Positions 20,691-64,000 of a DNA stretch of 64,000 nucleotides are shown piece after piece. Under the pieces are notes generated by a model. It saw only the letters and a list, made by a program, of their open reading frames with translations. It was not told the DNA's origin and did not search any database. Source of the stretch: Gracilaria domingensis (taxonomy: Eukaryota > Rhodophyta > Florideophyceae > Gracilariales > Gracilariaceae); NCBI GenBank assembly GCA_022539475.1, contig VCMS01000026.1:112530-176529 (forward strand). Reading direction: 5' to 3'. Each line of letters begins with the position of its first letter. Position 1 is the stretch's first letter. Both the position numbers and the translations under genes were made by a program.

Positions 20691-20692
<2 letters not shown>

Positions 20693-20725
<33 letters not shown>

Positions 20726-20786: not shown

Positions 20787-20848
20787 CGGCGCGCAGCAAG
20801 CCGCGCCGCGGCGCGCCGCGGGCGGGGGGCCGGGGGGCCGGGCGCGCG

Positions 20849-21211
20849 TCAGTCGGCGTCGGGCGCGCGCGGCGGCTGCTTTTCGCTGCGGCGCGGCGCG
20901 TCGGCGCGGCCGCAGCGCTCGCCGCAGCACTTGTCGCAGTAGGCGCAGCACACGCGGAAGCCGGCCGACGAGTAGCCGAACAGAAACGAGCCGTCGCAGC
21001 TCTGGTTGAGCTGGTGCAGGTAGCGGTTGCACGGCTGGCGCTGGTGGTGCAGCTCGTGCCAGCCGCACTGCGTGCAGTTGCCGGCCGCGTCGAACAGCCG
21101 CGGCGGCGCGGCGGGCGCGGCGGGCGCGGCGGGCGCGGCGGGCGGCGCGGCGGGCGCGGCGGGCGCGGGCGCGGCGGGCGCGGCGGGCGCGGGCGCGGGC
21201 GCGGCGTGCAT
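20849..21211 (-). CDS. small Cys-rich protein with Ala/Pro-rich N-terminus
   Basis: Family not recognised. From the ATG at 21211 the product is 120 residues. The first 40 or so are an Ala/Pro repeat encoded by tandem GGCGGGCGC-type units (about 21100-21210 on the plus strand). The C-terminal part contains a dense pattern of Cys and His: C-x2-C (CTQCGWHELHH), two further single Cys, and then C-C-x2-C-x2-C-C-x3-C (CCAYCDKCCGERC). This suggests a zinc-binding or disulfide-rich small domain. The frame stays open upstream to 21388 without another ATG. Surrounding DNA is extremely GC-rich, so open frames on both strands are common here; I chose this one because the Cys pattern is not explained by composition. 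Confidence 0.55.
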   Translation of the reverse strand: MHAAPAPAPAAPAAPAPAAPAAPPAAPAAPAAPAAPPRLFDAAGNCTQCGWHELHHQRQPCNRYLHQLNQSCDGSFLFGYSSAGFRVCCAYCDKCCGERCGRADAPRRSEKQPPRAPDAD

Positions 21212-22069
21212 CGCGGCGGGGGGGGGCGGCGCGGGCGGGCGGCGCGGCGGGGCGTGGCTGCGGGGCGTGGCGCGGGCGCGCGCGCGCGCAGCGGCGTTTG
21301 CGGTGATATACGCGGCCGGCAACGTCGCGGCGGAGGCGCTTCGCGGCGCGCGCGGCGCGCGCGACGAGTCGTCGCGCTTTACGTACACGGCGCGCGCGCG
21401 GCGTTTTGATTCATGGCGCGCGCGGCGCGCTGCGTGGCCGCACGCGGCCGCGGCGGCGCGTCGCTGTTTCCAAAGCGCGCTGGCGGCGCGGCGCGCGCGC
21501 TATTCCGGGCGCGCGCCGCCAGACATTTGGCGCCGAAGGTGCGCCGAAGGTACCTTTCAAAAAAGGCTAAGTTTGGACAAATTTCACCAATCTTTGAATA
21601 TCTCAAAAACTGTTCTTTTTTGGCTCTCAACAGTTTGTGTACGACTACTAGTCTTGTTCCTAAACCAACGTCAGAGAAAACACAGGTTAATGGTGGACAA
21701 ACTTGAAAACGCAGTAAACGACACCAAGCGTTGGACTTGACACTTCGTAATGGGCATTAACAGAAACATAATAGCTATTCACTATGTTTGTCTGTTTTTG
21801 ATGACCTTTTTTGCGCGTTTCTTGCCGTAGATGGCGCACAAAACGCTACAAACGTATGGAAAAAGCACTTGAGCTAGTACTTTTTGTTTCTTTATTACGA
21901 GCTTATTGGCGTACTTTTCATGCTATTCCTTTGCAAATACTAGTTGCTGATGCTCTTCTACTGCTTCCTAGCTGCTGTTGTACGAACTTTGTTCCGTTTA
22001 TTTGCTATTCGTTGATATTCTGTCCGTTCTTCCATATCTCCAAGTGTTTCGGTAACTTTGCCATGTTCT
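21212..22069. other. GC-rich to AT-rich transition without a recognised gene
   Basis: The GC-rich island ends abruptly at about 21560. The rest, to the hAT insertion site, is ordinary AT-moderate sequence. Frames up to about 240 codons in the GC-rich part are composition artefacts (Ala/Arg/Gly repeats). I see no gene, though the 5' region of the Cys-rich gene must lie here. Confidence 0.5.
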
Positions 22070-22077
22070 CTTATTTT

Positions 22078-22104
22078 CAGGCCCGAACACATGACTGACT
22101 AACT
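22078..22104 (+). repeat. left terminal inverted repeat of the hAT element
   Basis: Begins CAGGCCCGAACACATGACTG and is mirrored at 27142-27168 with two mismatches. It is preceded by the 8-bp duplication CTTATTTT. Confidence 0.95.
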
Positions 22105-22255
22105 AATGAGCAAAAAGGGGTATATATGACTAACTAACTAATGAAAGAAAAAGGACTTAGTCATCAATACTGCAGCGTGTACACGACTGACACGTTAGAC
22201 AACTGTTCCACAAAGCCACGAAAAAGGCGCCAATACTCTCGAGATAGATCAACAA

Positions 22256-22292
22256 GATGTGTGGCGATTCATTTTGAAAACTCTAAATGGCA
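22256..22292 (+). repeat. internal inverted repeat of the hAT element, left arm
   Basis: A stretch of about 35 bases containing GCGATTCATTTTGAAAAC recurs in inverted orientation at about 24684-24720 with two differences. The two arms exactly bracket the minus-strand ORF. It could be the remains of terminal repeats of a nested insertion, or a duplicated regulatory or transposase-binding site. Confidence 0.85.
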
Positions 22293-22441
22293 ACTGGCCT
22301 GCCACCGAGATATCGTCAAAATGATTCAGGAAACGTTTTTGGACGCAAAAACCAAATTTGTAGAGCTCTCCAAGAGCGTCAGAACAAGACCAAGGCTATA
22401 GAAATCGGAGCTGTAACGCGTGAAATATGCATCAATCGTGT

Positions 22442-27176: not shown

Positions 27177-27860
27177 CGTAAAGCTCTGAAATCAAACCCT
27201 AATGACTTTCACTGGCTTTTAATGTCCTCAGCGCTCTAAAGTTGGATCAGCTGCCTCACTAACCTTGAGCGTTTATCACAATTGTGAGTATTGTACGCGA
27301 ATTCTTTATATGTTTTGATACATCGATCGTTGCGAGGTGCCAATTGATGTCATACTTGTGAATAGAGGCCTCTGTCGTTGTGCTGATATGCTCTTTTCAC
27401 TTGTAGGTAGGTAAAATTCTGTATGGAAGACGTAAAGCTGATGTGCATCGAAGAGGGTTCAGATAATGAGAATGCACTGTGACTGCTTTTTGCTTTCATG
27501 TTGAGCGTTTGGTGGCGGTCGCGGCGCGCTTTTGAATACCTGACGCTTTGTAAAGGATCTAGAATACGTTGGCAGAGGTAAACGCATGCAAAGCAGACGC
27601 AATACGGATGATAAACTGGGAAGGTTTGATGAAGAAAGCTATCATCATGGTAGATTTACTCATTATAAACTCCATAATTAACCCGTTTCCAAAATTGACC
27701 TTTTTTGGACGGTACCGCGAAAAAGCGCGCGCTTTTTGCCAAAAGCGCTCAAAACTTTCAGCCCACCCAGAGGGTAAAAGGTTCGTAGGATACCCACGCG
27801 TGCGTCGCCGCGCGCGGCGCCGGCCGCGCGCCCGCGCCGCGCCACGCCGCCGCACCCACA
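27177..27860. other. intergenic region between the hAT element and the BMT2 gene
   Basis: AT-moderate until about 27780, where composition switches abruptly to extremely GC-rich, about 80 bases before the methyltransferase ATG. It probably contains the BMT2 promoter. No gene seen. Confidence 0.5.
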
Positions 27861-28769
27861 ATGAGCGCGCGCCCGCGCGCGCGCTCGCCGCCGCCGCCGC
27901 CGCCGCCGCGCGCGGCGCTGCTGCCCGACGCGCGCGCGCTGAGCCGGCGGCAGACCGTCGCGCTGTACCACACGCTCAACAAGCGCGAGGCGGCGGTGGC
28001 GCGCGACGCGGCGCTGCCCAACGCGGCGGCGCGCGCCGCGCAGCGCGCGCTGCTGCGCGCGCAGCGCTCGCTCATCGGCATGCGCGCCTACCAGGCGGCG
28101 TCGCGCGCGGGCGAGCGCGTGGCGCGCGGCGCCTCGTTCGACTGCTCCGCCTGCGTCACGGCGCACCTGCGCCGCCTCGCGTTCGCCGCCGACCACGTGC
28201 GCCTGCTGGACGTGGGCGCGCTCGCGCCGCGCTTCCCGCGCGCCGTCGCCACCGCCGCGGGCGCGCTGCCGCTGCGCGCCACCGCCATCGACCTGCACCC
28301 GCCCGCCGCCGCCGCCGCCGCCGCCGTGCTGCGCGCCGACCTCGTCGACTTTGCCGCCGACGCCGCGCGCCGCGCCTCCTTCGACGTCGTCTGCCTCTCG
28401 CTCTGCCTCAACTTCGAGCGCTGCGCGCGCCGCCGCGCCGCCATGCTGCGCGCCGCGCACGCGCTGGCCGCGCCGCGCGCCACGCTCTTCCTCACGCTGC
28501 CGGCGCCGTGCGTCGCCAACAGCCGCTTCCTGGACGCGCGCACGCTGGCGCGCGTGCTGCTGGCGTGCGGCTTCCGCGTCGCCGCCACGCGCTTCTCGCG
28601 CCGGCTGCTGCTGTGCGTCGCGACGCAGTGCCACCCCGTGCCGGACGCCCGCCTGGCGCGCCGCCGCGTCGTGCGCCCTGGCAAGGCGCGCAACAACTTT
28701 TGCATCTGCGTGCCCGCCATCCCCGACGCCGCGCCGCCGCCGTCCAGAGCCGTCGCCGCGCCGCCGCGG

Positions 28770-28830
<61 letters not shown>

Positions 28831-28940
28831 GCGCGGCACGCGGCCGCGGCGCGCAGCCGTCGACCAGCAACTCGCGGCGAAAGGCGCGCCGCCGCGCCGC
28901 GTTCAAGGCGCGCCGCGCAATTACAAAAGCGCCGTCATAA
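27861..28940 (+). CDS. BMT2: BMT2-like 25S rRNA adenine-N1 methyltransferase
   Basis: 359 residues from ATG at 27861. After a Pro/Arg-rich start, the protein has the features I associate with the Bmt2 family: YQAASRAGERVARGASFDCS, then a Rossmann-type SAM site LLDVGALAPRF, an acidic loop at AIDLHPP, then FDVVCLSLCLNFERC and LFLTLPAPCVANSRFLD, and LLACGFRVAATRFSRRLLL. In yeast this family methylates N1 of an adenine in 25S rRNA in the nucleolus; the wider family includes the SAM sensor SAMTOR, so a sensor role is an alternative. The C-terminus carries an uninterrupted run of 19 CCG codons (28773-28829) and a basic Arg-rich tail. GC content is extreme, so long shadow frames exist on both strands. 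Confidence 0.8.
28773..28829 (+). repeat. (CCG)19 trinucleotide run in BMT2
   Basis: Nineteen consecutive CCG codons encode a polyproline segment near the C-terminus of the methyltransferase. The run lies outside the conserved domain and is likely to vary in length between strains. Confidence 0.95.
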
Positions 28941-29112
28941 TTCGCGCCGCGCTCCGCGCCGCGCTCCGCGCCCTCTTCCAACGTAAATCTCTCCATCTAT
29001 CGCTCTACGCCCCACGTCCCTCCCCGTTGTCGGCGGCGGCGTCGTCGTCGCCCACTCTCGCGAGTTCGCCGTGCGCGCTCGCGCGCGCCCCCCCTGTGCG
29101 CGGCGCCTCGTC

Positions 29113-31134
29113 ATGACGTCTTCTCCCGCGGCGGGCGGCGCGCCGCCCGTCGCGCGGGAGGGCGACCACCCGCTGCGCGCCGACCCGCTCAACGTGCTGC
29201 CGGACGCCGTGCGCGTGCCGCGCCGCGCGCGCGCGCTGCCTGCCCGCCGTGCGCGCCGGAGCAGCGCGCCGCCGCCGCCGCCGGAGGCGGCGGCGACGGC
29301 GAGTGAGCGCCGTGCGGCGGCGGCGGCGGCCGGTGCGGATGGGTCGCCGCAGCAGCTGGCGGAAGATACCACCCGATTGCTGCAAGCTCATCAGCGCCCG
29401 CGCGATCCTCTGCTCATGCATCTGGCGCAGCGCGCGGAGCGCCCGCAGTCGCCGCCGGCGGGTGACGCGTATGCGGCTGACATTCACGCGGTGCTCGCGC
29501 GCTGGGAGGAGGGCGAGCGAGACACTTATTCGGACGGTGTCATCGATCGTTCTGATGTCACCTTGTTTCCGGCGGCTGCGCAGAGAAGCATGGCGGCTGG
29601 CGTGTTTGTGGTCAGATCGCGACGCAACTGGACCATTGTCTCGACGCCCACGCAGGAGGATTATTACCTGGTGCGACGATCGATTGCCGACTTTCTGTGG
29701 CTGCACGATTGTCTCAGCGCGCGCAATGAGGGCGTCATCGTGCCGTTGCTTCCGCCTTTGAGCTTTGCGGGTCGCGTCAAGCATGGGTACGCCTACGAGC
29801 ACGAGCGTTTGAGGGCACTAGAGACGTTTTTGAGAAGGGTTGCCACTCATGCTGTGCTTTCTACCAGCGAGGAGTTGCTGGCCTTTCTGGGTGCTCTGGG
29901 AGAGGATGAGTGGCTCAAGATTCGGAGAGAGGCCATTAGTCATGAGAGTTCCATCACGTCCGCCTTGTTTGGCAGCTCGGCGGATGAGAATGCATGGCAT
30001 CGACTGGCGCACTGGGGCGAGAAAATGCTATGGCAGACGGGTAGAAGATTCAACAAGGCCTTGGTGTGGTTTCTTGAACGGGATGGCTCCGAGACGCTTG
30101 CGGAAGACTCTGCGGAAGCGCGCGTAGAACGATTGCATACGTACGTCAAGCATCTCGGAGTCTCTCTGGCCTTCTTGCGACACGCCACTGAAAAAGTTCA
30201 CAAGCAAAGGGAGGCTGAGCGCAATTGCGCCGTCTCAATGCAGAACGCTCTGCGAGAGCTGGGTACGCGGGAGGGTGGTAAGCTGGGCTCTCAGTTAGAA
30301 CAGGTCAGGCTGGAGATTCCACCGGAGGGCGAACTCCATTTTGCTGCCATGTCGAGTGCGAACACGAGCGCCGATCCGAGCGGCGATGCGCGTGGTGGTG
30401 CGAGTCTGGTTCCTGCTAATCGCGTGTTTGGCCCTCATTTGGATCACGGCACTTCGACCCATAATTCTTTGGGTGCGCAGGAGAAGCTACGTCGCTCACC
30501 TCCAGGTTCGAAGGGGTACTCACGACGTGTCTCGTTTGCTCCTGCGGAAAGGCCTCCTTCGTCAGACGATGGGCCAGTGGCAGGGGGAGGAGGAGGGGGA
30601 GGAGGGGACCTGTCTCGCAACGGGGTTCAAATTGCTCTACCAGTCGCACGCGTGGTGGATGACGTTTTCAGGGATTATGAAGAAAGAGCTAAAGGAGCTC
30701 AACGCATAATGAACGCTAGAAGGGAAGAACAAGATGCGTATGAACACGCCGTCGCGGTGTACACAAAGCTCCGTGATCAGCTGGAAAGCCGCACAGGGAG
30801 TATGTGGGATGGCCGATCGGAGGCATCCAATGAAGGCTTGGAGGGCTTGAAAACGGAAGTGAACAGGGCTTCAAACCGGTTGAAGGAGATACGGGAGCGG
30901 TACAAGAAAGTGGCATTGTCCACGACTGATGAGTTGAGACGGTTGCGGAATGATATGCATGAGGACTTGTGTGAAGCGCTGCACGGCATGGCTGTTGAAT
31001 ACGCCCGACAACATGCTGCCCATGCCGAAGCATGGACATCCTTGGCACAGTGCGTGAACGAGTTTCGAAAAAGTTCGAAAACAACTGTGACTTCCAGTCC
31101 GCAAAGTGGATCAGCTTCACGTAGCAGAATTTGA
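29113..31134 (+). CDS. PX-domain sorting nexin-like protein with C-terminal coiled-coil/BAR-like region
   Basis: 673 residues from ATG at 29113; an upstream in-frame ATG at 29071 is possible. The first 100 residues are Ala/Arg-rich and GC-biased. A PX domain lies at about residues 155-270: VFVVRSRRNWTIVS, then YYLVRRSIADFLWLHDCLS, GVIVPLLPPL, and ERLRALETFLRRVATHAVLSTSEELLAFL. PX domains bind phosphatidylinositol phosphates on endosomes. A Gly/Ser-rich linker follows and then a long helical C-terminal part (about 520-660) rich in charged heptads, consistent with a BAR-like dimerising region of SNX-BAR proteins. The likely role is endosomal membrane sorting. It follows BMT2 by 172 bp in the same direction and converges on the AIF-like gene 286 bp downstream. 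The DNA falls from very GC-rich to average within the gene. Confidence 0.8.
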   Translation: MTSSPAAGGAPPVAREGDHPLRADPLNVLPDAVRVPRRARALPARRARRSSAPPPPPEAAATASERRAAAAAAGADGSPQQLAEDTTRLLQAHQRPRDPLLMHLAQRAERPQSPPAGDAYAADIHAVLARWEEGERDTYSDGVIDRSDVTLFPAAAQRSMAAGVFVVRSRRNWTIVSTPTQEDYYLVRRSIADFLWLHDCLSARNEGVIVPLLPPLSFAGRVKHGYAYEHERLRALETFLRRVATHAVLSTSEELLAFLGALGEDEWLKIRREAISHESSITSALFGSSADENAWHRLAHWGEKMLWQTGRRFNKALVWFLERDGSETLAEDSAEARVERLHTYVKHLGVSLAFLRHATEKVHKQREAERNCAVSMQNALRELGTREGGKLGSQLEQVRLEIPPEGELHFAAMSSANTSADPSGDARGGASLVPANRVFGPHLDHGTSTHNSLGAQEKLRRSPPGSKGYSRRVSFAPAERPPSSDDGPVAGGGGGGGGDLSRNGVQIALPVARVVDDVFRDYEERAKGAQRIMNARREEQDAYEHAVAVYTKLRDQLESRTGSMWDGRSEASNEGLEGLKTEVNRASNRLKEIRERYKKVALSTTDELRRLRNDMHEDLCEALHGMAVEYARQHAAHAEAWTSLAQCVNEFRKSSKTTVTSSPQSGSASRSRI

Positions 31135-47837: not shown

Positions 47838-49012
47838 GTCGTAGTATCCAGCCTCAGCTACGTCGCCCATGCCGATGGGTAGCTTCACACCGAAGTGCTC
47901 TACCGAGGCGCAAATCAGCAATGGACGCTGTTGAAGTTAACATAACCCACATTCATACAGCAAAGCTCTCTCAAGCTCGTAATCGCTCCCGATTGCATGG
48001 ATTTTGTGACGACATTGGTGCCCCTCGTTCGGTCGTAGGCATAAAGGAACTGAGACGAATCTTTGCTCGCAATCGTGTTCCTGTCCCGAAACTAGATCGC
48101 CTATCATCTCACACACGCTTCCGGTTTGCCGATGCTACATTCGAATCGATCGGGCAGATCACCTTACCACTCGATACGCCTCCCAACGTCCCCCCCATTT
48201 TCGTGACCATGGACGTTGTCCAGGCTGACATTCCAGCTCTTCTTGGCATGGACATATTAGATCGGGAGTCTTTAATCGCAGACACTGTGGCAAATCGTCT
48301 CACACGCCGTGAACGCATCACGAATGAAGACGGTGTCGACCGATATGTCGACAACTGGTCCATCCCACTCTACAGGGCAAAGAGTGGACATGTGTTCGTG
48401 GATATACGCTTTCCATCCAAGATATATTTCACTAGGGCACAACTCTACAAGCTGCATCGGCAATTCTTCCACCCTTCCGCCACGAAGCTTTTCAATCTCA
48501 TCAAGAAGGCGAGGCCAGAGGAAGCCACCCCCGAGACCTTGAATACGTTAAGGGACCTCACCAAAAGATGCGATCCTTGTCAAAGAATCCAAAACGCGCC
48601 AACACGATTCCGCGTTTCTTTCGGTGCCGAAAACGTACGCTTCAATGAGCGCGTTCTCATTGATATCATGTACATTGACGGCAAGCCAATCCTACACGTA
48701 GTTGATGAAGCAACCCACGTCTGTCTCTTGCAGATGCTAGTTTTTGGCGAGGGTCGTCCAGAAATTGGCAAGGGTCGTCCAGTAAATTTTTTGAAAAAAT
48801 ATCGAGATCAATTATTTCAAAATTTGGAGATAATTGCTTGGGTCGTCCAGAATCGCTGTGCAGTAAATACTGGTGGGTTTTCCACTCGTGCTAGTTCTTT
48901 AGTCGAGGGCTACCTGAACTGTATTTCGCGAAGTCTAGGTTCAGTTTCCATTAAGGTGCACATTACACGATACCTTCTGCGGAATGATACCCTGCAACGC
49001 ATAGAATACTAG
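47838..49012 (+). pseudogene. protease and truncated integrase of the Copia-like element
   Basis: The frame has its first ATG at 47921 but is open from before 47838. A protease signature DDIGAPRSVVG lies at about 48010-48042 (D-x-G-A), followed by the second protease strand around LLGMDILDRESLI. The integrase zinc domain follows: LYKLHRQFFHPSATKLFNLI with CDPCQR, and then the first core strand RVLIDIMYIDGKPILHVVDE. After about 48750 the frame runs on into foreign sequence with three GGGTCGTCCAG repeats and no integrase similarity. The remaining catalytic residues of integrase and all of RT are absent. Confidence 0.65.
48751..48850 (+). repeat. three GGGTCGTCCAG direct repeats at the truncation point
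   Basis: The 11-mer GGGTCGTCCAG occurs at 48751-48761, 48772-48782 and 48840-48850. The first copy sits exactly where integrase similarity stops. Between copies 2 and 3 is AT-rich sequence with AAATTTTTTGAAAAAAT. This looks like the end of another, unidentified mobile element that truncated the Copia-like copy. Confidence 0.7.
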
Positions 49013-49144
49013 TGCTAGTACAGATGATGCCCATTATGAAATCATACCGTTTTATTCGTATCTATTCTTCTATCGACCGCTTTTGCTAACCATTACTTCG
49101 CTATATTACATGTACCATATCCCCATGATGGAGCGAGTGTAGGC

Positions 49145-49172
49145 GCAATCTGCGGCAGATGCCGCAGATTGC
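49145..49172. repeat. hairpin 1
   Basis: Perfect 13-bp arms (GCAATCTGCGGCA / TGCCGCAGATTGC) with a 2-base centre. Weaker complementarity continues outward (GATGG ... CCATC). Confidence 0.95.
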
Positions 49173-49214
49173 ACCTCCACCATCGGCTGTATCGGTAGAA
49201 CAAATACGCACTCC

Positions 49215-49247
49215 GAGAGGATGAGGCGCAAAGCGCCTCATCCTCTC
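49215..49247. repeat. hairpin 2
   Basis: Perfect 15-bp arms (GAGAGGATGAGGCGC / GCGCCTCATCCTCTC) with an AAA loop. Confidence 0.95.
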
Positions 49248-49248
49248 C

Positions 49249-49300
49249 GTTCCTCATGTAGGGAACCATGCCCAGATGCATGGTTCCCTACTTGAGGAAC
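49249..49300. repeat. hairpin 3
   Basis: Arms of 23 bases with one mismatch (T opposite T), inner perfect part GTAGGGAACCATGC / GCATGGTTCCCTAC, and a 6-base loop. It starts one base after hairpin 2 ends. Confidence 0.95.
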
Positions 49301-49345
49301 CTGCACCTGCAACTCGTGAGCTACGTCCGCATCAAAAGTCATTTA

Positions 49346-49859
49346 CCTGTATACGCAAGCAGAAAGTATCCATAGGTTAGTCAATGATCCGTTGGATACA
49401 TTTGAAATGCGATGGAACGTACCATTGATAAAGCAAAACAGAAACGATGCGCTAGAAAAGTCGAGGGACCTAGTAACTCGCAAAATGAAAAAGAAGAAGG
49501 AAAGGGATCGGTTAGATTACCAGCCCACCATCATCGTAAAGCGCGAAAGGTGTCGAAGCGAGAACTCACAACCAAGGACACCAAGAATGCCCATGCAGCA
49601 AACATACCTCAAGATGCGATAAACGAAAGAGCAGCCTATGTCCCAACCAAGTACCAGAATCGCCTATCTCGAACAGCCAGAGATCGATCTTGAGAGACGA
49701 AATGAAATTGGTCGTTTTCCTGTATACGCAAGCAGAAAGTATCCATAAGTTAGTCAATGCTCCGTTGGATACAGTTGAAATGCGATAGAACGTACCATTG
49801 ATAAGAGCAAAACAGAAACGTTGCACTAGAAAAGTCGAGGGACCTAGTAACTCGCAAAA
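49346..49859 (+). repeat. 140-bp direct repeat pair
   Basis: 49346-49485 and 49719-49859 are about 93% identical. Both start CCTGTATACGCAAGCAGAAA and end TAGTAACTCGCAAAA. The 233 bases between are unrelated and A-rich. The spacing and single-base differences suggest an old local duplication or two copies of a short element end. Confidence 0.9.
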
Positions 49860-50120
49860 GTAACCCAAAGCCTTTTTCCTGCCGTTTACATGTCGCAGAG
49901 CCCGAAGAGACGTGGTGAGGATTGGTTAGTTTAGAACAAAGATACGTAGAAGGAAATGGAATCACGTACGAAAAGACTGCACGGAAAGACTGCACGGAAT
50001 ACATCCGTGAGATACGGATGCTGTCCGCCTTATGGAGGCGTCCGACGAGGGCGGAGAAAGAGAATGAGGTACGCTTCATGTCCGCTTAATGGAATCCATT
50101 CTCAGCACGCTACTTCGTAA

Positions 50121-50186
50121 TCCGTCGTACTTTTTTCCGCCCTCGCACTTCGTAGCGAGTGCGAGGGCGGAAAAACGTACGACGGA
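50121..50186. repeat. long hairpin 4, upstream of the TNP2-like gene
   Basis: Arms of 29 bases with a single mismatch. The left arm begins TCCGTCGTAC, then six T, then CCGCCCTCGCACT; the loop is eight bases (TCGTAGCG). It is much longer than expected by chance and lies 365 bases before the ATG of the TNP2-like gene. Confidence 0.95.
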
Positions 50187-50550
50187 GCGGAGTAGAACGC
50201 GAGGATGGCACGGATCACGACGGTAACAAAAGGTCGGACGTCGGACGGGCGGGGGCGGCGGCGGAGGGAAGAGATTTATTTTTCTGTGCGAGATTGGACA
50301 AGTATACAGCGTACAACGTTAGGAAACCAGAGGTTTATAACCAGTGGTAGATAATACGAGAAGTACACCCTTGTGTTGAGGTCGACGTGTACCTACGTTC
50401 CTTTTTGAACGAAAGCACGTGATTTAAACTCAAAATATATTCTCCGTTCTGAGCAAGACGTCGATATTGACTGTCGCTCGACCTCCTTCTCCGTTCGGAC
50501 GCCCTTCCCTTGCAGTCTTTGTCGTCGTTTCTCGTTCATTTCTTCTTCCC

Positions 50551-53487
50551 ATGGTCTACTACTGTACACATAAGAAGCGTGGGTGCCCCTTTGTTACTCG
50601 CCGAGGAGTCTTATCTCTTCAACAGCATGTCAACCATTGCCCGTTTCGTCTGAAAGCAGCGCTGGAAGACGACAATAGCCGGGCCATTCGGAGAAGCAAG
50701 CGTCTCAACCTTTCCGCGCCCGCGCCCGCATCTTCCGAAACGGTCACTGCCCCTTGTCGCCTTCCCGAGCCTCCAGTGTCCGAGGACATCGTCGACCCCA
50801 CTCCGTGCGCCCCTCCCATTCCGGACACTTCGCATTGTGTTTCTCCTTCCCCGGGTCCCGCGTCATTAGAGCGAGAACACGGAAGCAGTTCCCGCCCAGT
50901 GCCTTCTGAGGAGGCCCTTGGTGATTTGCATATGGATTATCTCACGGTTTGTCTGGCTTCAGTAGCTTCCAACCTTGGTCATCGTGAGGCGGACGAGCTA
51001 ATTGGGCTACTTCGGGACCCGCGATTCTCGCAAAAGCGATTCAACGAGACTATAACAAGTTCCAAGCGCTGTACAGAACTGAAGAACGCCATTTTCGAAC
51101 GATACGCCTCAAAGGACGGTTTCAATCGCAGAACTGTCTCGCCAGAAGGATGTAAGTTCAGCGCCACCCTCTACACGAGAGACCCCGTTCAGACACTTGT
51201 GAAACAGCTCCAGTTGGCTAACAACGAAAACACATTCTTCCACCCTATACCTCAGACCCACTCCACGAAAATTTCTCACCCCATGTCCGGCTCTCTCGCA
51301 AGAGACGCCACCTCAAAACTTAAGGAAATGGTCATGGGCTCTTTGGATAGTAGAATAGTGTGGTACTCCCAAGAAATAAGTTACAGTGAATCTTTCGTAG
51401 GTCTTCTGCAGGTATACACCGATAAGTCTTCAACAACTCTAAAGCAAACATCGGTTACCGCCTATCCTCTTCACCTCATATTTCTCAACTTCTCCGACGA
51501 GCTTCGCCGTAAGTGTATCCGTGACGACCTCACAGTAGTGGCATACTTCCCTACCACACTGATCGAGGTTTCCGCATCTGAAGCAGACGCAATGCCATTT
51601 GTTTCTAGCAAGTCTCTACGCGAGTCCAGGATGCAAATCCTTCAAGAATCTCTTCGTCAAGTCCTGGAGCCCATTCTAAATCTCACGCAGAAAGGTTTTC
51701 AGTTCATCGGGGAAGACAAACTAAGTCGAGTGTGCCATCCTCTGCTTGCAAGTTATTGTGCGGATATTCCTGAGGCTAAGGACATTCTGTCCATTCTTCA
51801 TGGGACCAAAACGGAAAGCCCGTGTCATAGATGCAAAGCCCCTCGCTCATCTTTATGCAGTCCTATTCCCACCTCATTCAACGGACGTTCTCAAGAGCAC
51901 ACGAAAAGCATCCGAAAGACATACACAGCTATCTTGCAACATGCACAAAAAGACGAGGCGGAAAGACGTCCACGTCGTGCGAGGGAGAGGAGATCTCAAG
52001 CGGATACTCTGATGTGTTCAAATTCCATATCTCTCATTCCTTCGTTCCTCGAAACTTCCGTAAGCCTTGGAATGATCCCGGGATTGTCTCCATACAGTCT
52101 GTTCTCATTCGAACCATTACACAACTTGCATCTCGGCATCTCAAAGTTGATAAAAACGGCCACAATCGAGAGACTGCAGTCAGACACCCTGTGCACCACA
52201 ATAGGAACATCTGCATCGCGTTCATTTCGAACGATACGCACCCAACTCCTCAACCATGCAAACGCAATTCTAGCTGCCATAGAACGCGATTCTCCTGCCA
52301 AAGGTTTACATATCGATTTCTCCACGCAGGAGAAAGGCAAATCTTTGAATGGTATCTTCACGAAAGACGGTCTCCGTGGAATGCTGGAGGCCAAAAACTA
52401 CAAAGCACTTGACATGGTCTTTATCTTCATAGGAGCATTCTTTGACATATGCTGTGGAGAACAGGACGTTGCCCCAATCACAACCGTTTTCTCTCAGTAT
52501 TCGGACTTGCTCTCGACCTTATTCAGATACAATCGTGACCCGTATTGGACTGAAAGCTGTCTCCTGTGTCTTAGTTCGGAGATTGAAGCCTTCAAGCGTT
52601 CCGCAACAAAGACTCTGGCGGATTTTCATCCCTCCAGATTGGGAACTCTGAAGTTTCATCTTCTCGATCATCTCGTGGACGATATTCGCCGTCTGGGAAG
52701 TATCAAGTACTACGACGCAGGCATATACGAACATGCACACCTGCTATTTAAGAGACACTACAAAAAGACGTCCAGAAGAACAGCAACGGCTGTGGAGGAG
52801 ACGATTCGCTCCATTGAGCACGGACATGTTAGAAAGCAATGGAATGGCAATACTCCTTACCAGCGTAATCCTGGTTTACCAGGAACTTCCACACAGCTTC
52901 CTCGGTTTGCAATGAGAGGGCTTTCTTTCACTTTACGAGCTCTTCAACATTGTGTTTCAAGTATGTCCAGTTCAAAAACATGGACTGCTGTTAGAGAGAT
53001 GTTCTCAAGTACGGACACAAGGTCGATTCTTGATCAAATTGGTGAACAGGCCCTTCCTCCTTTCCTCAGTCTCGTGAAAGAAACACTGGATGAGCACTCT
53101 ATTACATACTTCCCAGAAAAGACAAGGATAACTCTGGTGAATTCGGCCCTCGTGAAAGGCGGTTTCGTTCCGACTCTTGAACACTTCGATTCGTCTTCTA
53201 AGGCACTTAAGCTGGGACGACCCAAATACCCCATCATCCAACGTGTCTTCGCTTCTCCAGCATTTGGTCCCAGTAGAAAGCCAAAGTTTTCCACTGTATT
53301 GGTAAGCGGAGAAGATTCAGAGACTTGGGTTGCCCAGGTAGTCGCTCTGATTCGAATATCTCTCCTTGATTCTGCACTTACCGCACCAGAGGTGGCATTC
53401 GTCCGGTATTTCGAGGTTTTACCCCCCCGCAACAAACATCGACCACATATTGAAATGCATATCTTTACGGTGGGCTACAAACGATGA
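50551..53487 (+). CDS. TNP2/Plavaka-like (CACTA-related) transposase, probable C-terminal frameshift
   Basis: 978 residues from ATG at 50551 (MVYYCTHKKRGCPFVTRRG). The N-terminus has a C2H2-like finger (C ... C ... H-V-N-H-C). A Pro/Ser-rich linker follows. The core shows the pattern of TNP2/Plavaka transposases: HLIFLNFSDELRRK, then DIPEAKDILSILHG directly before a C-x2-C motif (CHRCKAP), and LSPYSLFSFEPLHNLHLGISKLI, where a D/E-P-x-H-N-L motif is diagnostic. The frame ends at 53487, but coding-like sequence continues in another frame to 53731 (TIVELTPWYGMVPASALQG). A run of seven C at about 53422-53428 is the likely slip site. The full protein would be about 1055 residues. Its end would overlap the end of the convergent coiled-coil gene by four bases. 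Confidence 0.7.
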   Translation: MVYYCTHKKRGCPFVTRRGVLSLQQHVNHCPFRLKAALEDDNSRAIRRSKRLNLSAPAPASSETVTAPCRLPEPPVSEDIVDPTPCAPPIPDTSHCVSPSPGPASLEREHGSSSRPVPSEEALGDLHMDYLTVCLASVASNLGHREADELIGLLRDPRFSQKRFNETITSSKRCTELKNAIFERYASKDGFNRRTVSPEGCKFSATLYTRDPVQTLVKQLQLANNENTFFHPIPQTHSTKISHPMSGSLARDATSKLKEMVMGSLDSRIVWYSQEISYSESFVGLLQVYTDKSSTTLKQTSVTAYPLHLIFLNFSDELRRKCIRDDLTVVAYFPTTLIEVSASEADAMPFVSSKSLRESRMQILQESLRQVLEPILNLTQKGFQFIGEDKLSRVCHPLLASYCADIPEAKDILSILHGTKTESPCHRCKAPRSSLCSPIPTSFNGRSQEHTKSIRKTYTAILQHAQKDEAERRPRRARERRSQADTLMCSNSISLIPSFLETSVSLGMIPGLSPYSLFSFEPLHNLHLGISKLIKTATIERLQSDTLCTTIGTSASRSFRTIRTQLLNHANAILAAIERDSPAKGLHIDFSTQEKGKSLNGIFTKDGLRGMLEAKNYKALDMVFIFIGAFFDICCGEQDVAPITTVFSQYSDLLSTLFRYNRDPYWTESCLLCLSSEIEAFKRSATKTLADFHPSRLGTLKFHLLDHLVDDIRRLGSIKYYDAGIYEHAHLLFKRHYKKTSRRTATAVEETIRSIEHGHVRKQWNGNTPYQRNPGLPGTSTQLPRFAMRGLSFTLRALQHCVSSMSSSKTWTAVREMFSSTDTRSILDQIGEQALPPFLSLVKETLDEHSITYFPEKTRITLVNSALVKGGFVPTLEHFDSSSKALKLGRPKYPIIQRVFASPAFGPSRKPKFSTVLVSGEDSETWVAQVVALIRISLLDSALTAPEVAFVRYFEVLPPRNKHRPHIEMHIFTVGYKR

Positions 53488-53727
53488 AAAGAACCACACT
53501 CTTCCGTTCCCTCGTCATTCCAAAGCGGAGACTATCGTAGAGTTAACTCCTTGGTACGGGATGGTTCCGGCTTCTGCACTACAGGGAACTGTCCATGTTG
53601 TTCGATCAAACTACCCTGCTCCACCTTTTTGTCCTCCACTTCAATGGTTTCAACACCGATTCTACATCAATCGATTCTATCATGATTCAGATGAAGGACC
53701 AACTGAGCACGTTGATCTTGTACAGCC

Positions 53728-55158
53728 TTAAACATTAAGGGCTCCATCCTCTACATGTTCACCTTGTGGTGCCTTTTCTTGTGATCCTGTGTTACTTCCG
53801 AAATCGTTCATGTCCATTTCCTTGAACTGCATATCCCCTTCCTCGCATTCACCAACGAAGCAATCGCTAATAGACCCCAATCTTCGGCTCACACTGTCAA
53901 TAAAAAATTGTTCTTTCACAGTGAGGTAAAGTCTTCCGTTCGACGGCATTCGATATCCAAATGTAGCCTCTCTCATGTCATTACCAAGAACCTTAGTCCA
54001 ATCTTCCGTTGTCGTTCCAAAATTATGAAACTCGGTGGAATTGGTCCTCAAGACACGTTGCCTAACATCCCCCAGAACATTCTTTAAACACAGAGGTAGC
54101 AGTTCGGCAAACTTCTTTGTAAACAGTTTCTGTCTCTGGCCACCCCTTGACACATCCGTACTTAGAAGGCTCACAACCGTCAACACCCAAGCGTCCAAAC
54201 GTGCGAGCAACAGTATTGTGCCATCTAAAAAGGTGCCCGTATCCTTGTCTTCCACATCATACCCAATAAACTCCTTCAGCACTTGTACCCCGACACGGTT
54301 TCGGAAGAACAAGTCTAGATCTTCCGTCGGCATATCCTCGACATTGTCCGCATTGGAGTACTTTAGACGAACAAATGGGGCTTTTCTCCACCATGAAGTG
54401 TTCGGTACACCATTTTCGTCAAGACGCAGTATGTTCTCCTGCGCTTCCTTCAACTGCATTGTGAGTTCGTCAGCATTCTCTTCTACCAGCTTTGTTCTTC
54501 TCCAAATCAGATCGTACCCCAGGAGCAGAAATAGCTTATCCCTCGTATTTCTCTTACGAACGCCCACGACGTCACTCATGGTCTGCCGCATTCTCTGCCT
54601 AAGGCACATATCTGCACAAAGTTCCAGTATACACCTGTCGGTAAGAGATGCTTTTCTAATACCTTCCCAGCTCAACTCCTTCAACTCGCTTTCAACCATT
54701 TTCTTCAGCAAAGCATCTGGCCCCCCCTCTACCGACGGTGTGAACATGCCAAAACTGCCCAAGAGCTCCACGGGGTTTTTAGGAACCATGTATGAACCAC
54801 CTTCCTCCGGCTCAATAAGCCCTTCCCCACTCTCAGTTGCGTCTTCCACCTTCTCGGCACGGTTACCCCAATTTCGGGTGAGCGACTCACCTTCGAGCCA
54901 TAGCTCACTTGTTTCTCTCCTTGCCCGCGTCAGCATGTTGTGATACACTGCTCGAGCAACCCCTCGAAACTCGTCGCACACCTCAATTTTATGCTTCTTT
55001 CGACCTGTCTGCCCAGGTTCACCAGCACGTGTACTCCTATCTCCCTCCTGTTTCAGTGCCCCTCTTAGCCCTTCAATGACTAGATCCTTCTCTTCAAGCC
55101 TCTTTTTCAAAGCCGTACTCTGCTCTTGGGCGACCTTCACTAGAACTCCCCGAACCAT
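53728..55158 (-). CDS. coiled-coil protein of unknown function
   Basis: 476 residues from the ATG at 55158 (MVRGVLVKVAQEQS). The first 40 residues form a charged coiled coil (TALKKRLEEKDLVIEGLRGAL). A basic segment follows (TGRKKHKIEVCDEFRG), then an acidic linker and a helical domain with several Trp residues (MVESELKELSWEGIRKASL; DLIWRRTKLVEENADELT). The C-terminus is acidic. I recognise no family. Its ATG overlaps the stop of the upstream basic ORF as TGATG, so the two may be one protein interrupted by a frameshift or may be translated in a coupled way. Its stop overlaps the extended transposase frame on the other strand, so the genes are packed without spacer. Confidence 0.55.
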   Translation of the reverse strand: MVRGVLVKVAQEQSTALKKRLEEKDLVIEGLRGALKQEGDRSTRAGEPGQTGRKKHKIEVCDEFRGVARAVYHNMLTRARRETSELWLEGESLTRNWGNRAEKVEDATESGEGLIEPEEGGSYMVPKNPVELLGSFGMFTPSVEGGPDALLKKMVESELKELSWEGIRKASLTDRCILELCADMCLRQRMRQTMSDVVGVRKRNTRDKLFLLLGYDLIWRRTKLVEENADELTMQLKEAQENILRLDENGVPNTSWWRKAPFVRLKYSNADNVEDMPTEDLDLFFRNRVGVQVLKEFIGYDVEDKDTGTFLDGTILLLARLDAWVLTVVSLLSTDVSRGGQRQKLFTKKFAELLPLCLKNVLGDVRQRVLRTNSTEFHNFGTTTEDWTKVLGNDMREATFGYRMPSNGRLYLTVKEQFFIDSVSRRLGSISDCFVGECEEGDMQFKEMDMNDFGSNTGSQEKAPQGEHVEDGALNV

Positions 55159-55463
55159 CAAGTCCTCTTGTAGCGTTCTTGAGGAGCAGAGACAGATGCA
55201 CGATTTGCATTATCGGCAGTTGACGGCACGACATCGTTCGCTGATCCACGAATTCTTGACGCAATCCCGGAAGACGCTCCGCTGCGAGATGGGCGAGAGA
55301 GTCCTGTAGAAGGACGCCCACTGACTCTCTCCTTCGTCGAGGACGACTTCCGTTTAGGAAGTGCGGTGCTTGTAGCCTGATTTGTATCATCCGATGCTCT
55401 TCTCTTCTTCTGTCCACTCTTGTTCCGCTGCGTACTATTTCGCTTTCTCGGCGTTATACCCAT
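55158..55463 (-). CDS. small basic Ser/Lys/Arg-rich protein, or N-terminus of the coiled-coil protein
   Basis: 101 residues from ATG at 55463 (MGITPRKRNSTQRNKSG). It is highly basic, with nuclear-localisation-like runs (KRNSTQRNKSGQKKRRASDD; PKRKSSSTKERV), then Ser/Ala-rich. The frame is open further upstream to 55670 but passes through Pro-rich sequence that looks non-coding. The stop TGA overlaps the next ATG (TGATG). A histone-tail-like or DNA-binding role is conceivable from charge alone; nothing more can be said. Confidence 0.45.
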   Translation of the reverse strand: MGITPRKRNSTQRNKSGQKKRRASDDTNQATSTALPKRKSSSTKERVSGRPSTGLSRPSRSGASSGIASRIRGSANDVVPSTADNANRASVSAPQERYKRT

Positions 55464-55709
55464 GTTGTGGAGATAAACGGGGTAATGAAACGAAATTGTT
55501 GGGGAGGGGGGAGGGGATGGGGGGGGTGCATGGTTCAGATATTCCGGGAGACTCCGCAGTTGCTGCTTTTTAGGAATTTGAGGTTCCCAATGGGTCGCAA
55601 ATATCGCCGTTACAGATGAAGAGCTCCAGTGTACATGTACAACAACGCGTATTGCAGGCAGCTGCAACACTCACAAGCATATTTACTTTCTATTTGGTAC
55701 TGAACTCAT

Positions 55710-57413
55710 CTATTGCTCCAATGTCAGAGCCCAGTCCCAGGCGTAATGCTCTCCGTAGTTGAAATACAACTCTTCGCCCCTCTCAATATTTCTTACTGCT
55801 CTACAACGAAGTAGAGCATAGTTAGAAAGGTCTGACTTGAACTGTATCACGGACTTCGCTTCCACCACCTGCACATTGGCACTGCGAGTCCTGTTTGACC
55901 GGGGCTCCGATAAATCGGGATCCCCGGCATGATATCCGGCGTCGTTAATGTAGCCCCCGATACAAAAAGGCGCCGGGACAATGTAGACTTCGCTCTCCTT
56001 TCTATCTTGAGCCTGTCCTGGTCTGTTCTTCAGGTGCAGAAACTCCGTACCAGTCACAGTGACCATCATAGAAAACAACTTGTACCGCACTGGAGTTGCT
56101 CCGAGACAGCCACTTCCATACGTTAAGTGTCTTTCCTTCCGGTTCGTCAGATCCGTGTATACCAAAGTTCCATAGAAATGACAGATAGTTTCCCCAGCCA
56201 ATATCTTATGTTCCGTGAACACCCCCATACCAGCACGGGGATGTCGAATCTTAGAAGATGCTATATGTAAGCGATAGCGATTGGCTTCAACAGTCAACAG
56301 CATATGCATATCCATAAGATTCAGAGCTCCTCGGTACTTCCCCTCCCAAAGATCTACAGTACGCTGTCCACACTTCTCGACAAAGTCCCAGTCCTTCCAG
56401 TATCTTCCTAGGAACTGAGTAATATGTCCAGGCATCACTTGGTACTGGGGGTAACCAAATGGAGCCTCCCATTCAAGCCGACCTCGGTCCCGATGTGGAA
56501 CCCGTTCATAGGTCGTTGAAGCCGCATCCACCACCTCCTGTTCAACCAGGATGTCATTCTTCCCCCCGCGAATAACTTCGGCCATAAGAGTCGTTAGATG
56601 GTGCTTCGCATGGCTGAAACATGGCCTATTCTTCTCGCACCCCAAGAACTTCCTATGCTTTGTCAGCGATAGGCACGCCATACCCGTAGAAAAAGTTCCC
56701 GCGAACATGTCCATGACAAGATCACCCGGTCTTGTGAAGCGACATATCAACTCCTTCATCAACTCCCTCGATTTCTGCTCCGGTCTTATGTACTGCCCAC
56801 CTGGTACTGAACTACCTGGCTCATGTACCTTCCATGTCAACCACTCCCCCGCTCTCGGTTTGGGCACCCGGTCAATTACATTCCTGTTAGCCGGGAAAGT
56901 GGAAGGAATGAAATTGTTCTCCTCAAATGGAGTAAGACTGGCTTCCTCCGATGGTCGCAATCCACGCTTCACCCCATGAAAGGCGTACTCCGTTACGGGC
57001 TGTATCCCAAACTTCCGTGGATTCCCTCCAACATTACTGCGATCCCGGATGAACACCAGTGGATTCGCATCCACTTTAAACGAAGGCATGAGTTCTGGTT
57101 TACCTTCGCTTCCAGCTTCATCTTTCGTACTCGCCGTTTCCGAAAGTATCCTGTGCCACACATGAAACTGTGCCATAGCACAGAATATAATGAAGTGCCC
57201 ACCTGACCGAAGCGCGGAACTTATTAAGTCAGCCGTACGGATCATGTCTTCCTCACTGAAGACATCGTGACCACTATTCCGTTTGTTCCTCTTCCTTCGA
57301 GTGTTAAAGGGAGGGTCTGTTACGACAAGCTGTGCCTCACCCCCGGGGTCCCGCACACGTGGGACACCTTGCGCTTCCTGCCAGTCTCTAGTATACCCCT
57401 TCTTACCTGCCAT
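55710..57413 (-). CDS. fusion of a beta-class DNA amino-methyltransferase and a SET domain
   Basis: 567 residues from ATG at 57413 (MAGKKGYTRDWQEAQG). Near the N-terminus is motif IV, VVTDPPFNTRRKR (about residue 33). The SAM-binding part follows later: RPEQKSRELMKEL and then PGDLVMDMFAGTFSTGMACL (about residues 210-245). DPPF before FAGxxST is the order of beta-class N6-adenine/N4-cytosine methyltransferases; DPPF favours N6-adenine. The C-terminal third (about 375-560) is a SET domain: AGMGVFTEHKILAGETICHF, GGYINDAGYHAGDP, and RAVRNIERGEELYFNYGEHY. SET domains methylate protein lysines, mostly histones. I know of no standard family with this fusion. The frame is intact. The gene is divergent from the 706-residue gene (147 bp apart). 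Confidence 0.8.
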   Translation of the reverse strand: MAGKKGYTRDWQEAQGVPRVRDPGGEAQLVVTDPPFNTRRKRNKRNSGHDVFSEEDMIRTADLISSALRSGGHFIIFCAMAQFHVWHRILSETASTKDEAGSEGKPELMPSFKVDANPLVFIRDRSNVGGNPRKFGIQPVTEYAFHGVKRGLRPSEEASLTPFEENNFIPSTFPANRNVIDRVPKPRAGEWLTWKVHEPGSSVPGGQYIRPEQKSRELMKELICRFTRPGDLVMDMFAGTFSTGMACLSLTKHRKFLGCEKNRPCFSHAKHHLTTLMAEVIRGGKNDILVEQEVVDAASTTYERVPHRDRGRLEWEAPFGYPQYQVMPGHITQFLGRYWKDWDFVEKCGQRTVDLWEGKYRGALNLMDMHMLLTVEANRYRLHIASSKIRHPRAGMGVFTEHKILAGETICHFYGTLVYTDLTNRKERHLTYGSGCLGATPVRYKLFSMMVTVTGTEFLHLKNRPGQAQDRKESEVYIVPAPFCIGGYINDAGYHAGDPDLSEPRSNRTRSANVQVVEAKSVIQFKSDLSNYALLRCRAVRNIERGEELYFNYGEHYAWDWALTLEQ

Positions 57414-57560
57414 ACATATCGGATCCACTATACTACAGACCCCCCTCCTAGAGTGCGCGACGCCCACGACGCGCCACCAGTCCAGCCTTCACGCGACACG
57501 CTGCCCTTTCGCTCCGTGGCTCCGTCCGTGACGGTGCATATTTCATCCCATCAAGCTCAG
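57414..57560. promoter_or_regulatory. divergent promoter region between the methyltransferase-SET gene and the 706-residue gene
   Basis: Only 147 bases lie between the two divergent ATGs (57413 minus, 57561 plus). Both frames stay open across it, so the true starts could be further upstream and overlapping. Shared regulation is inferred from layout. Confidence 0.45.
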
Positions 57561-60037: not shown

Positions 60038-61681
60038 ATGTCACTCATCGCCTCTCCTTTACTGAGCGCTTTCCAGCGCATGAATGAAACCTCACAAGAC
60101 ACAGCGCAATCCGTTCCCAGTCCCAGCAAAAACGTTGCTGCTGAGAATTCCACAAACAAGAGCACACAAATCAACACAGACACAAGCAATAAGTCCACTC
60201 GAAAGCCCCAAGTTGTGCTCACAAACACAAACAAAGCACAAATAGCTAAATGGATGATTGAAACAGCTGATACTGATGGTCCAAAACACATAGTATCAAG
60301 AGCTGTCGCACACTTTCCGCAATTCTTTCGCTCTAATCCAAAAGGCTAATATACAGCGTGCAAGTAGATACTGGAAATGTCGACTGATCATCACGCATGG
60401 ACACAACCGCAAAGAAAAGAATAATAACTATTCCTTCGTCAAACACTCCAAAAATGGGCTTAAAGGCATTGGTGCAAGTCGGAGAAAGGGCGTGGCCGTA
60501 AAGTGACCCCATGGGTCGCTGCCTTACACATGGATCTCTGCGAAGAATTCAACCGCTTGCGTAAATCGGGAGTGAAGTTTAACTCAAAACTTCTCAAACG
60601 CCTGGCTCTAACGCTTATCCGAAAAGCTCAGAGTGGGCCATATCATGCCACAATGCGAGATCAAAGAACCAACGATCTCATTGAATCTCGGATAACCTGT
60701 CGATGGATACAGTCCTTCATGCAACGTCACAACATTGTCAACAGATCACAGTGTGGGAAGTTGATGGTTTCGCCCACCAAACAAGAGCACATTGAGCGAG
60801 AGGTAGCCTACCACCTAGGCCAACTTGCCAGAGATTTTCGTTCCAATTCGTTGCAAGAAGAAGATGTCTATAACGCCGATGAGACTCATTTTGTGATGAA
60901 CATGGACAATCATAAAACGCTTGCGATTGTAGGAGAAAGCAGCGTTCGTTATGCTGATGTGGTCTCGGGCGATGACGGTATCACGATGATGGTGTTGATT
61001 GCTGGAGGTCCGAATGCGAGATTGGAAACACCGATGTTAATATTCAAGAACGCTGATAAGAACTACCCTATACGAGGACTGCCAGATGACGTGCCAGGAG
61101 TGGTGTACCGTACGGGGCCAAAAGCGTGGATGAACAAGAGGGTTTTCCTAGAATGGGTGAAAGAAAGTCGCGTTTTTGAACCACTACCGAACAACCGAAA
61201 GCGTGTTCTCTACATAGACAATGTCAATACGCACCACCTAACAGCGGATGTTCGCGCGGCTTTGGAGAGAAGCAACACCGAGATCCGTTTCTTTCCGTGT
61301 AACGACACGCATCTAGTTCAGCCTGCAGACAGTTTTGTCATTCAGAAGTTGAAAACGTATTGGCGTCATGAATGGGATGATCACAAAATGGGTCTGTTAG
61401 AGAACGGTATGTGGTCTGATGGTGCAAGAGGCTCTGGAAAACTTACCAATCCGGGCAAGCGCCACTTTCAAAAGCTTGCCGCAAAGTCGGTTCGCATGGT
61501 GAGCGCTCAGAGGGACAAAGATGGGGTGACGTATGCGCGGAAGGCCATGATTCGTTGCGGCATGGCAAAGAATTTGAATGGGCAATGGGAAGAGCGCCAG
61601 CTCTTCCCAGAGCTGCAAGCGATTATACAGAAGTACAGGGAGAACTTTGAGGGGCAAGTAGTTGGAACTCAATCGTCATAA
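60038..61681 (+). pseudogene. pogo/Tigger transposase (frameshifted)
   Basis: The N-terminal frame 60038-60349 (MSLIASPLLSAFQRMNE) contains a helix-turn-helix-like region, NKAQIAKWMIETADTDGPK. It stops at 60349, where coding-like sequence continues in another frame (NIQRASRYWK). The frame changes again near 60486 into the main frame, which runs to 61681. That frame has a CENP-B-like second helix-turn-helix (ESRITCRWIQSFMQRHNI) and the DDE catalytic motifs: YNADETHF (first D), VLYIDNVNTHH (second D) and CNDTHLVQPADSFVIQ (third D), giving the DDD triad typical of pogo/Tigger. The main frame has no ATG at its open start, consistent with its being the continuation of a longer protein. Confidence 0.9.
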
Positions 61682-63094: not shown

Positions 63095-64000
63095 TTAAGA
63101 CGACTCCGTTCGGCTTATGCGCTTCCAGCAGCGCGCGAGGAAGTGCTGCGGGGTGTTCTCCGGGGGTTCCCAGGAGTCACCCGCAGCACCATATCCATAC
63201 CACCGTACACGGTAAACCATTCCATGAGGAGGGTCGTCGGAGACTCCGTGAGTCAGGATCTTCTCCACGACTCCGGTGGTATCCGAGCGGTGTTCTGCAG
63301 CATCAGATGGTCCAGTTGAGGTGTTAGCGGGTTCCAAAACGGGTTCATCGGCGAAGGGGCCGTCCGGGTCGGCAGATATGTTACGTTGCCCTTCGGAAGT
63401 CACTGGATGTGATGTTTTCCGAGCGGGGGCGCGTGTGACGCGGTCGACGCTGACGGTATCGTTGATGCCGTCAACGTCGATAGTGACCGTAGTGTCCGTG
63501 GCGGAAACGACCTTGTACGGTCCTGTTGTCTTCGGTAACAGTTTCCGTGAGGTCCTTTCGTGTTCGTCCAGAACACCACCGGTCGGAGTAGTTTTCGGGC
63601 GGTCGAGGAATACTTCCTCACCGGCCGTAAACGTTGGCGTCACCCGTACGGATTTATCGAAGTCCTCCTTATAACGCCGTTGCGCGTTCGTGAGTCGGTT
63701 CCGAGCGGATTGAAGCGTTGCCTTCAGTAGGCGTAATGTGTAACGCTTCATCTGCGCCGGCGTAGGTTGTGTCGGCGTAGTTGGATCCGTAGCGGAACTA
63801 GGTTCATTTAGAACGACATTCGGCGGTACACGGGTTAACGCCAAGTCAAATGGCGTGGTGCCCGTGCTTCGGTGAACCTGCAGATTGTATCCGTACGTAA
63901 GCGGCTGTACGTATGCGTGCCAGTTTGACTGGTGATCCGCAACGTAGTGTCGCAAGCGCTGTAGCAGCGTACGATTGAACCGCTCGGCCTGGACATTCGT
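63095..64000 (-). CDS. gypsy element 3 pol C-terminus: end of integrase and chromodomain (partial)
   Basis: The frame is open to the right edge. At the edge it reads NVQAERFNRTLLQRL, the region with the catalytic Glu of integrase. Then come YGYNLQVHRSTGTTPFDLAL and an integrase C-terminal SH3-like part (RKLLPKTTGPYKVVSATDT). A linker of about 60 residues follows, and a chromodomain (VVEKILTHGVSDDPPHG; YRVRWYGYGAAGDSWEPPEN) with the normal SWEP motif. It is clearly a different lineage from elements 1 and 2, which have a spacer of several hundred residues and SDEP. The rest of the element lies outside the window. Confidence 0.9.
   Translation of the reverse strand, partial: TNVQAERFNRTLLQRLRHYVADHQSNWHAYVQPLTYGYNLQVHRSTGTTPFDLALTRVPPNVVLNEPSSATDPTTPTQPTPAQMKRYTLRLLKATLQSARNRLTNAQRRYKEDFDKSVRVTPTFTAGEEVFLDRPKTTPTGGVLDEHERTSRKLLPKTTGPYKVVSATDTTVTIDVDGINDTVSVDRVTRAPARKTSHPVTSEGQRNISADPDGPFADEPVLEPANTSTGPSDAAEHRSDTTGVVEKILTHGVSDDPPHGMVYRVRWYGYGAAGDSWEPPENTPQHFLARCWKRISRTESS

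Follow-up and report, generated by a model that had tools for sequence, protein, structure and literature searches.

The question raised by this locus is whether one gene of a red alga can carry, in a single reading frame, both a DNA amino-methyltransferase (MTase) and a SET domain, and whether that gene belongs to a mobile element that may write its own chromatin state. The window, that is the whole stretch of 64,000 nucleotides analysed here, comes from Gracilaria domingensis (assembly GCA_022539475.1, contig VCMS01000026.1, positions 112,530 to 176,529 of the forward strand), and a first-pass annotation made from its letters had placed such a fusion at 55710-57413, next to a transposase. 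The MTase-SET fusion is real, conserved and shared beyond this genome. The gene is located within a high-copy repeat carrying a Plavaka transposase, and the copy present in the window is a 5'-truncated fragment.

Both halves were found in one protein, as that annotation had claimed. The Pfam search that it proposed, performed on the open reading frame (ORF) 55710-57467 (minus strand), gave N6_N4_Mtase (PF01555) with E 4e-16 (60.1 bits for a cut-off of 26.7; residues 46-283 of the window frame, 56619-57332, minus strand) and a C-terminal SET domain (PF00856) with E 2.5e-7 (31.5 bits for a cut-off of 22.4; residues 413-572, 55752-56231, minus strand). Motif IV precedes motif I, DPPF being located at residues 51-54 (57306-57317, minus strand) and FAGTF at residues 255-259, which is the order of beta-class enzymes. 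Across the family alignment, DPP is kept in the 16 rows that cover it (with F in 12 and Y in 4 at the fourth position), and the D-x-F-x-G of motif I in 18/18 rows. In the SET half, GxG is kept in 17/18 rows, Asn-Asp in 17/17, Glu566 in 17/17 and Tyr571 in 16/17. No chromodomain was matched in the window protein by the Pfam scan, and SPPY is absent, DPPF standing in its place. The first-pass assignment to the N6A/N4C class was thus retained for the motif order but not for its N4C part: in the extracts available of PMC8885841, the motif of bacterial N6A enzymes is given as DPPY and that of most of their N4C counterparts as SPPY, and because DPPY is paired there with N6A, the DPPF motif makes N6-adenine, not N4-cytosine, the predicted product, bearing in mind that the motif does not strictly dictate the product. 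The structural check informed mainly on the MTase half. The best sequence and fold matches of the MTase are CcrM and M1.HpyAVI (6pbd, 5hfj), in agreement with a CcrM-like fold, but the fold-match lists for the whole model were filled by MTase chains, the SET fold was not reached and the N-terminal domain was barely probed. With the profile of the family, EZH2, KMT5A and KMT2C chains are reached on the whole-sequence E, no single stretch passing alone.

Relatives were searched among 5.8 billion proteins (E <= 0.001), which returned 17 homologs. Thirteen of these have a length of 958-1,015 residues, one is assigned by name to Chondrus crispus, and residues 43-585 of the window frame are 45-48% identical to P0001, one of the 17. 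Among the 18 aligned members, including the window protein, N6_N4_Mtase was matched in 18 and SET in 16 at E <= 0.01, one member also matching the PRDM2 PR model. Both domains were found in 15 of the 17 homologs from other sources (window not counted), so that the architecture, which the first-pass annotation had suggested looking for elsewhere, does exist outside this genome, and the fusion recurs at dozens of places within it. An assembly or gene-model artefact joining two separate genes, which that annotation had named as one way its claim could fail, was rejected on both grounds; nothing was found in its favour, and its probability is considered vanishingly small.

The G. domingensis genome (77.9 Mb, 680 contigs) was searched for further copies, 75 of 792 candidates being scored, and the resulting counts are lower bounds. 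At least 76 MTase-SET rows were obtained (including that of the window, and one copy in two pieces), 36 of which have no internal stop, with 9 rows forming a stop-free frame of 1,055 codons. Among the 75 other rows, the match starts at residue 42-44 in 64, later in 8, and at residue 20 or 37 in 3; none of those listed matches the window protein from residue 1. In six inspected copies (C465, C164, C257, C171, C419 and C328), the frame extends upstream as far as an ATG, for a total of 1,045 codons, and an in-frame stop precedes this ATG in the five copies for which the upstream sequence was printed. The frame described earlier as intact does hold both domains, but it is composed of the C-terminal 543 codons of the MTase-SET protein (residues 43-585; 55710-57341, minus strand), which are matched by other genomic copies, and of 42 foreign leader codons (57342-57467, minus strand) joined to them by truncation, at a junction that differs from C171. 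The break is at about 57341-57344, with foreign sequence beyond it, and the lost part corresponds to a helical N-terminal domain predicted in the P0001 model; the window copy is unlikely to make the full protein. In a separate search of the same genome, at least 150 N6_N4_Mtase rows were found (best 150 of 328 candidates), some short and some with a profile span of 1-220, and these differing spans suggest that several MTase subfamilies are present.

The truncated copy of the giant repeat occupies 48718-57342 of the window (minus strand), from its right end at 48718 to the break, and aligns in two pieces with C171, C218 and C465 at 97.7-99.1%. Ten repeat copies of 16.6-20 kb each were fetched, with C171 as the reference. 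Eight of the ten (reference included) are colinear through the MTase-SET and Plavaka genes, in one or more pieces, at 94-98%, the exceptions being C465, which departs at +3,466, and C164, which is without the stretch up to +5,747. The Plavaka transposase (50467-53487, plus strand; PF18759, E 4.8e-19) is encoded on the strand opposite to MTase-SET, and its frame in the window departs from the other listed copies after residue 989; a protein search in which only the candidates sharing most words were scored gave one relative (P0020). The colinear repeat also includes an accessory ORF region (53728-55670, minus strand), whose frames 53728-55161 and 55158-55670 have no Pfam match at E <= 1 and which is about 660 bp shorter in the window than in C218 (+2167 to +2827), and a right arm (48718-50466, minus strand) that has no long frame of its own and ends ...CTAGCATCTGCAAGAGACAGACG on the minus strand.

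The association of the two genes was then examined over the whole genome, where at least 46 Plavaka rows were found (best 46 of 1,916 candidates), 40 of them stop-free. A listed MTase lies 1-9 kb away in the right orientation at 8 of the 46 listed Plavaka places (window included), with a spacing of 4,558-4,561 bases in six of the eight, 3,848 in the window and 1,935 at one place in C28. Similarly, an upstream MTase is listed for 13 (window included) of the 40 right-arm rows, and 11 of these 13 show a distance of 7,579-7,601 bases. About 0.008 partners per place are expected by chance, and a missing MTase partner among the matches listed is not readable as absence. The link to a mobile element is therefore firmer than first claimed, the gene lying inside a Plavaka-bearing repeat at a fixed spacing. 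The pogo/Tc5-like transposase frame at 60503-61681 (plus strand; DDE_1, E 5.4e-17) is located past the point where the MTase-SET repeat breaks off.

The right end of the repeat is sharp: of 40 long match rows, all but the window and one shorter match (38 rows) stop within 5 bases of each other. Twelve copies, including the window, end ...GACAGACG with 12 different flanks, the right end of these 12 being ...GAGACAGACG or a near variant; for comparison, the extracts of PMC12730594 give 5'-TGT..ACA-3' or CATCA..TGATG as termini of Plavaka (CMCT) elements. In the window, this end falls within the open frame 47921-49012, for which Pfam gave no match. Two other family ends show the same motif: window positions 9483-10493 (plus strand) match at 78% another repeat family (end of the L041 stretch, left flank of C218) whose right end is also ...ACACAGACG, and a third family ends with it at C171 -5688.

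Two candidates for the left end were rejected. The flank at the first, C171 -5683, is not the same in all copies: one version is common to C171 and C61, and another to C164, C218 and C328, which continue. The second, C218 -9467, looked sharp as most aligned copies began there, but only C218 differs, another repeat family ending at this point, and the ten newly read copies as well as C257 all carry identical sequence further left. The point beyond which this shared sequence extends could be located together with the right end in four copies (C139, C46, C120 and C359), at a distance of 18.7 to 20.6 kb, and C46 and C359 have a listed MTase in the interval. This sets a minimum of about 19-20 kb for the length of a full copy, which may include nested insertions. 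A search for a terminal inverted repeat (right end against C218) gave, besides the end itself, matches of 28 bases at most, and no clear partner emerged from a scan for CGTCTGT/ACAGACG, the left end being reached in neither case. In C257, the left part of the repeat is present twice, in inverted orientation and face to face (G000:C257:10468-15467 and 19000-23999), with 99% identity.

Selection on the frame was estimated from 19 copies (the window plus loci L002-L020, L012 having been dropped). The synonymous and non-synonymous divergences were dS 0.029 and dN 0.0085, hence a dN/dS of 0.29 (MTase 0.27, middle 0.32, SET 0.30), for copies drawn from the best protein matches, a choice that biases dN down. 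Changes common to at least two copies comprise 17 synonymous and 9 non-synonymous ones, for 367:1262 sites (binomial 3.6e-6), and singleton changes comprise 48 synonymous and 77 non-synonymous ones (4.7e-5) together with 4 singleton stops. This shows purifying selection on the frame, and the shared changes point to selection during the spread of the family, despite the sampling bias.

Further genes were found on the left side of the repeat. In C257, an 836-codon gene (L025:4966-7476, minus strand; 677 codons in C465) gives ParB-like matches to phrog_3264 (E 8e-4) and phrog_4715 (E 3e-3), and no Pfam match below E 0.6. A protein search with it, again limited to scoring the candidates with most words in common, gave two relatives. 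Both are named from Gracilaria domingensis, show 90-91% identity and bear misleading names. Further left, the HAD-type hydrolase frames L025:3003-3953 (PF08282, E 1e-12) and L025:4006-4743 (E 0.08, below the cut-off) may be cargo or a nested insertion.

How these observations combine into a function is a matter of graded probability. An even chance is given to the reading that the gene encodes an accessory enzyme carried by a giant DNA transposon of Plavaka type, by which the element writes its own chromatin state in a red alga. Full copies encode a protein of 1,045 residues with a helical N-terminal domain, a beta-class MTase (predicted product N6-methyladenine) and a C-terminal SET domain. 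The MTase, perhaps together with the ParB-like protein of the repeat, would methylate adenines on the element DNA, the tethered SET domain would methylate a lysine of a nearby chromatin protein, and element copies would thereby keep a state allowing expression and movement despite host silencing. This direction, anti-silencing and not self-restraint, is the least certain step and is only slightly favoured. In favour of this accessory-enzyme reading are the two domains and their presence together in most homologs, the kept catalytic residues, the CcrM-like fold, the selection on the frame, the fixed spacings and the colinearity of copies through both genes. The ParB-like match in the other large gene of the repeat is also counted for it, as is the precedent of transposons with epigenetic enzymes (in the part of PMC12730594 available). 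A more detailed version is considered less likely than not: a bifunctional enzyme of a giant Plavaka-type transposon would put both N6-methyladenine and a lysine methyl mark on the element's own copies, with the ParB-like protein as a possible DNA-binding partner, in a self-propagating epigenetic system with dozens of copies in this genome and relatives at least in Chondrus crispus.

Several points weigh against the accessory-enzyme reading. A listed MTase accompanies only 8 of the 46 Plavaka places and 13 of the 40 right arms in the lists given above, and many repeat copies may be without the MTase-SET gene; internal stops are present in 40 of the at least 76 MTase-SET rows; the ParB-like matches are weak; and the choice of copies biases the selection estimate in its favour. 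Neither the left end nor terminal inverted repeats or a target-site duplication could be located in the copies aligned, so that mobility by the Plavaka transposase is itself inferred. As regards catalysis, the classical beta-class motif I is FxGxG, although PvuII-type enzymes also vary there, and the usual SET active-site motif is NHSC. The family has FxGxF in 18/18 rows and, at the SET active site, ND-x-x-Y family-wide, Asn being kept and His/Cys replaced. Either half could therefore be a binding module, and the alternative that one or both halves are no longer enzymes and instead help a transposition or partition complex to bind DNA and histones draws on these two departures and is considered unlikely.

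The internal stops would also fit a protein that restrains its element by placing silencing marks on its own copies and so limits damage to the host, as would the family profile, whose SET matches include EZH2 and KMT5A besides KMT2 chains, EZH2 being repressive and KMT2 activating. The TET/JBP enzymes of transposons are read as anti-silencing in the extracts of PMC12730594, and nothing in the present data separates the two directions; self-restraint is regarded as rather unlikely. Finally, the MTase-SET gene could be part of a virus-like giant repeat carried or flanked by Plavaka, as in Amoebidium, whose Plavaka-flanked giant repeats have genes with database matches only to a set that includes red algae (PMC11244446, as far as its available text goes), and the MTase matches the phage family phrog_67 (E 1.4e-24). 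Against this, pattern searches of IMG/VR confirmed no relative, either with the MTase-SET alignment (21 pattern matches, 0 confirmed) or with the Plavaka protein (1 pattern match, 0 confirmed), and no viral hallmark was seen among the few repeat ORFs scanned against Pfam, the left part being unread; this virus-like reading is judged quite improbable.

The remainder of the window contains other frames, several of them of mobile-element type. Ty3/Gypsy-type frames are located at 2740-6144 (plus strand; RNase H, integrase and C-terminal Chromo) and 12226-14373 (plus strand; C-terminal Chromo alone), a frame with a sub-threshold chromodomain at 63095-63955 (minus strand), a hAT-type transposase frame at 24723-27086 (plus strand; Dimer_Tnp_hAT, E 1e-3, 19.3 bits for a cut-off of 21.4), and a 664-codon frame matching DUF7869 (E 6.2e-18) at 22442-24436 (minus strand). 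Positions 28001-30000 have a GC content of 74%, compared with about 50% in neighbouring 2-kb steps. This stretch overlaps two frames (27569-29116 and 27861-28940) as well as the beginning of a third, a PX-domain frame (29071-31134). An Rfam scan of the window at gathering thresholds gave no match.

Compared with known systems, the bdelloid rotifer N4CMT combines an SPPY motif, N4C activity and a chromodomain (PMC8885841, in the extracts available), whereas the present protein has DPPF, a SET domain and a location in a high-copy repeat with a transposase. The extracts of PMC12730594 describe SET genes in the transposons HarbingerS and MuDR of Phytophthora and TET/JBP genes in Plavaka, KDZ and others; the likeness lies in a DNA transposon with a chromatin- or DNA-modifying enzyme, Plavaka being among the TET/JBP carriers, and the difference in that SET or TET/JBP, not a DNA amino-methyltransferase or a DNA-MTase/SET fusion, are named in those extracts. 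The Amoebidium repeats (up to 50 kb, Plavaka-flanked, with many tyrosine recombinase genes; available text of PMC11244446) resemble this one in their red-algal link, but no tyrosine recombinase was matched among the repeat ORFs scanned here against Pfam, the left part being unread. Transposon-borne epigenetic enzymes are already known; open-licence literature searches found no paper on a DNA-MTase/SET fusion. CcrM and M1.HpyAVI are bacterial beta-class N6-adenine MTases, whereas the present family is distinguished by its SET domain, helical N-terminal domain and FxGxF. Eukaryotic mobile elements with an N6A-type MTase also include DIRS retrotransposons, which have a Dam-like MT domain, belong to another element class and are not known to carry a SET domain. 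In a figure of the Asparagopsis bromoform-gene locus, in the accessible part of PMC12115072, an 'adenine-specific DNA methyltransferase' is labelled.

This repeat family can confound the annotation of red-algal genes under that name. The capture of single epigenetic enzymes by mobile elements is well documented; here, one polypeptide could couple adenine and lysine methylation, and it provides a concrete candidate for asking whether red algae owe N6-methyladenine to bacterial-type MTases and whether a transposon can write its own chromatin.
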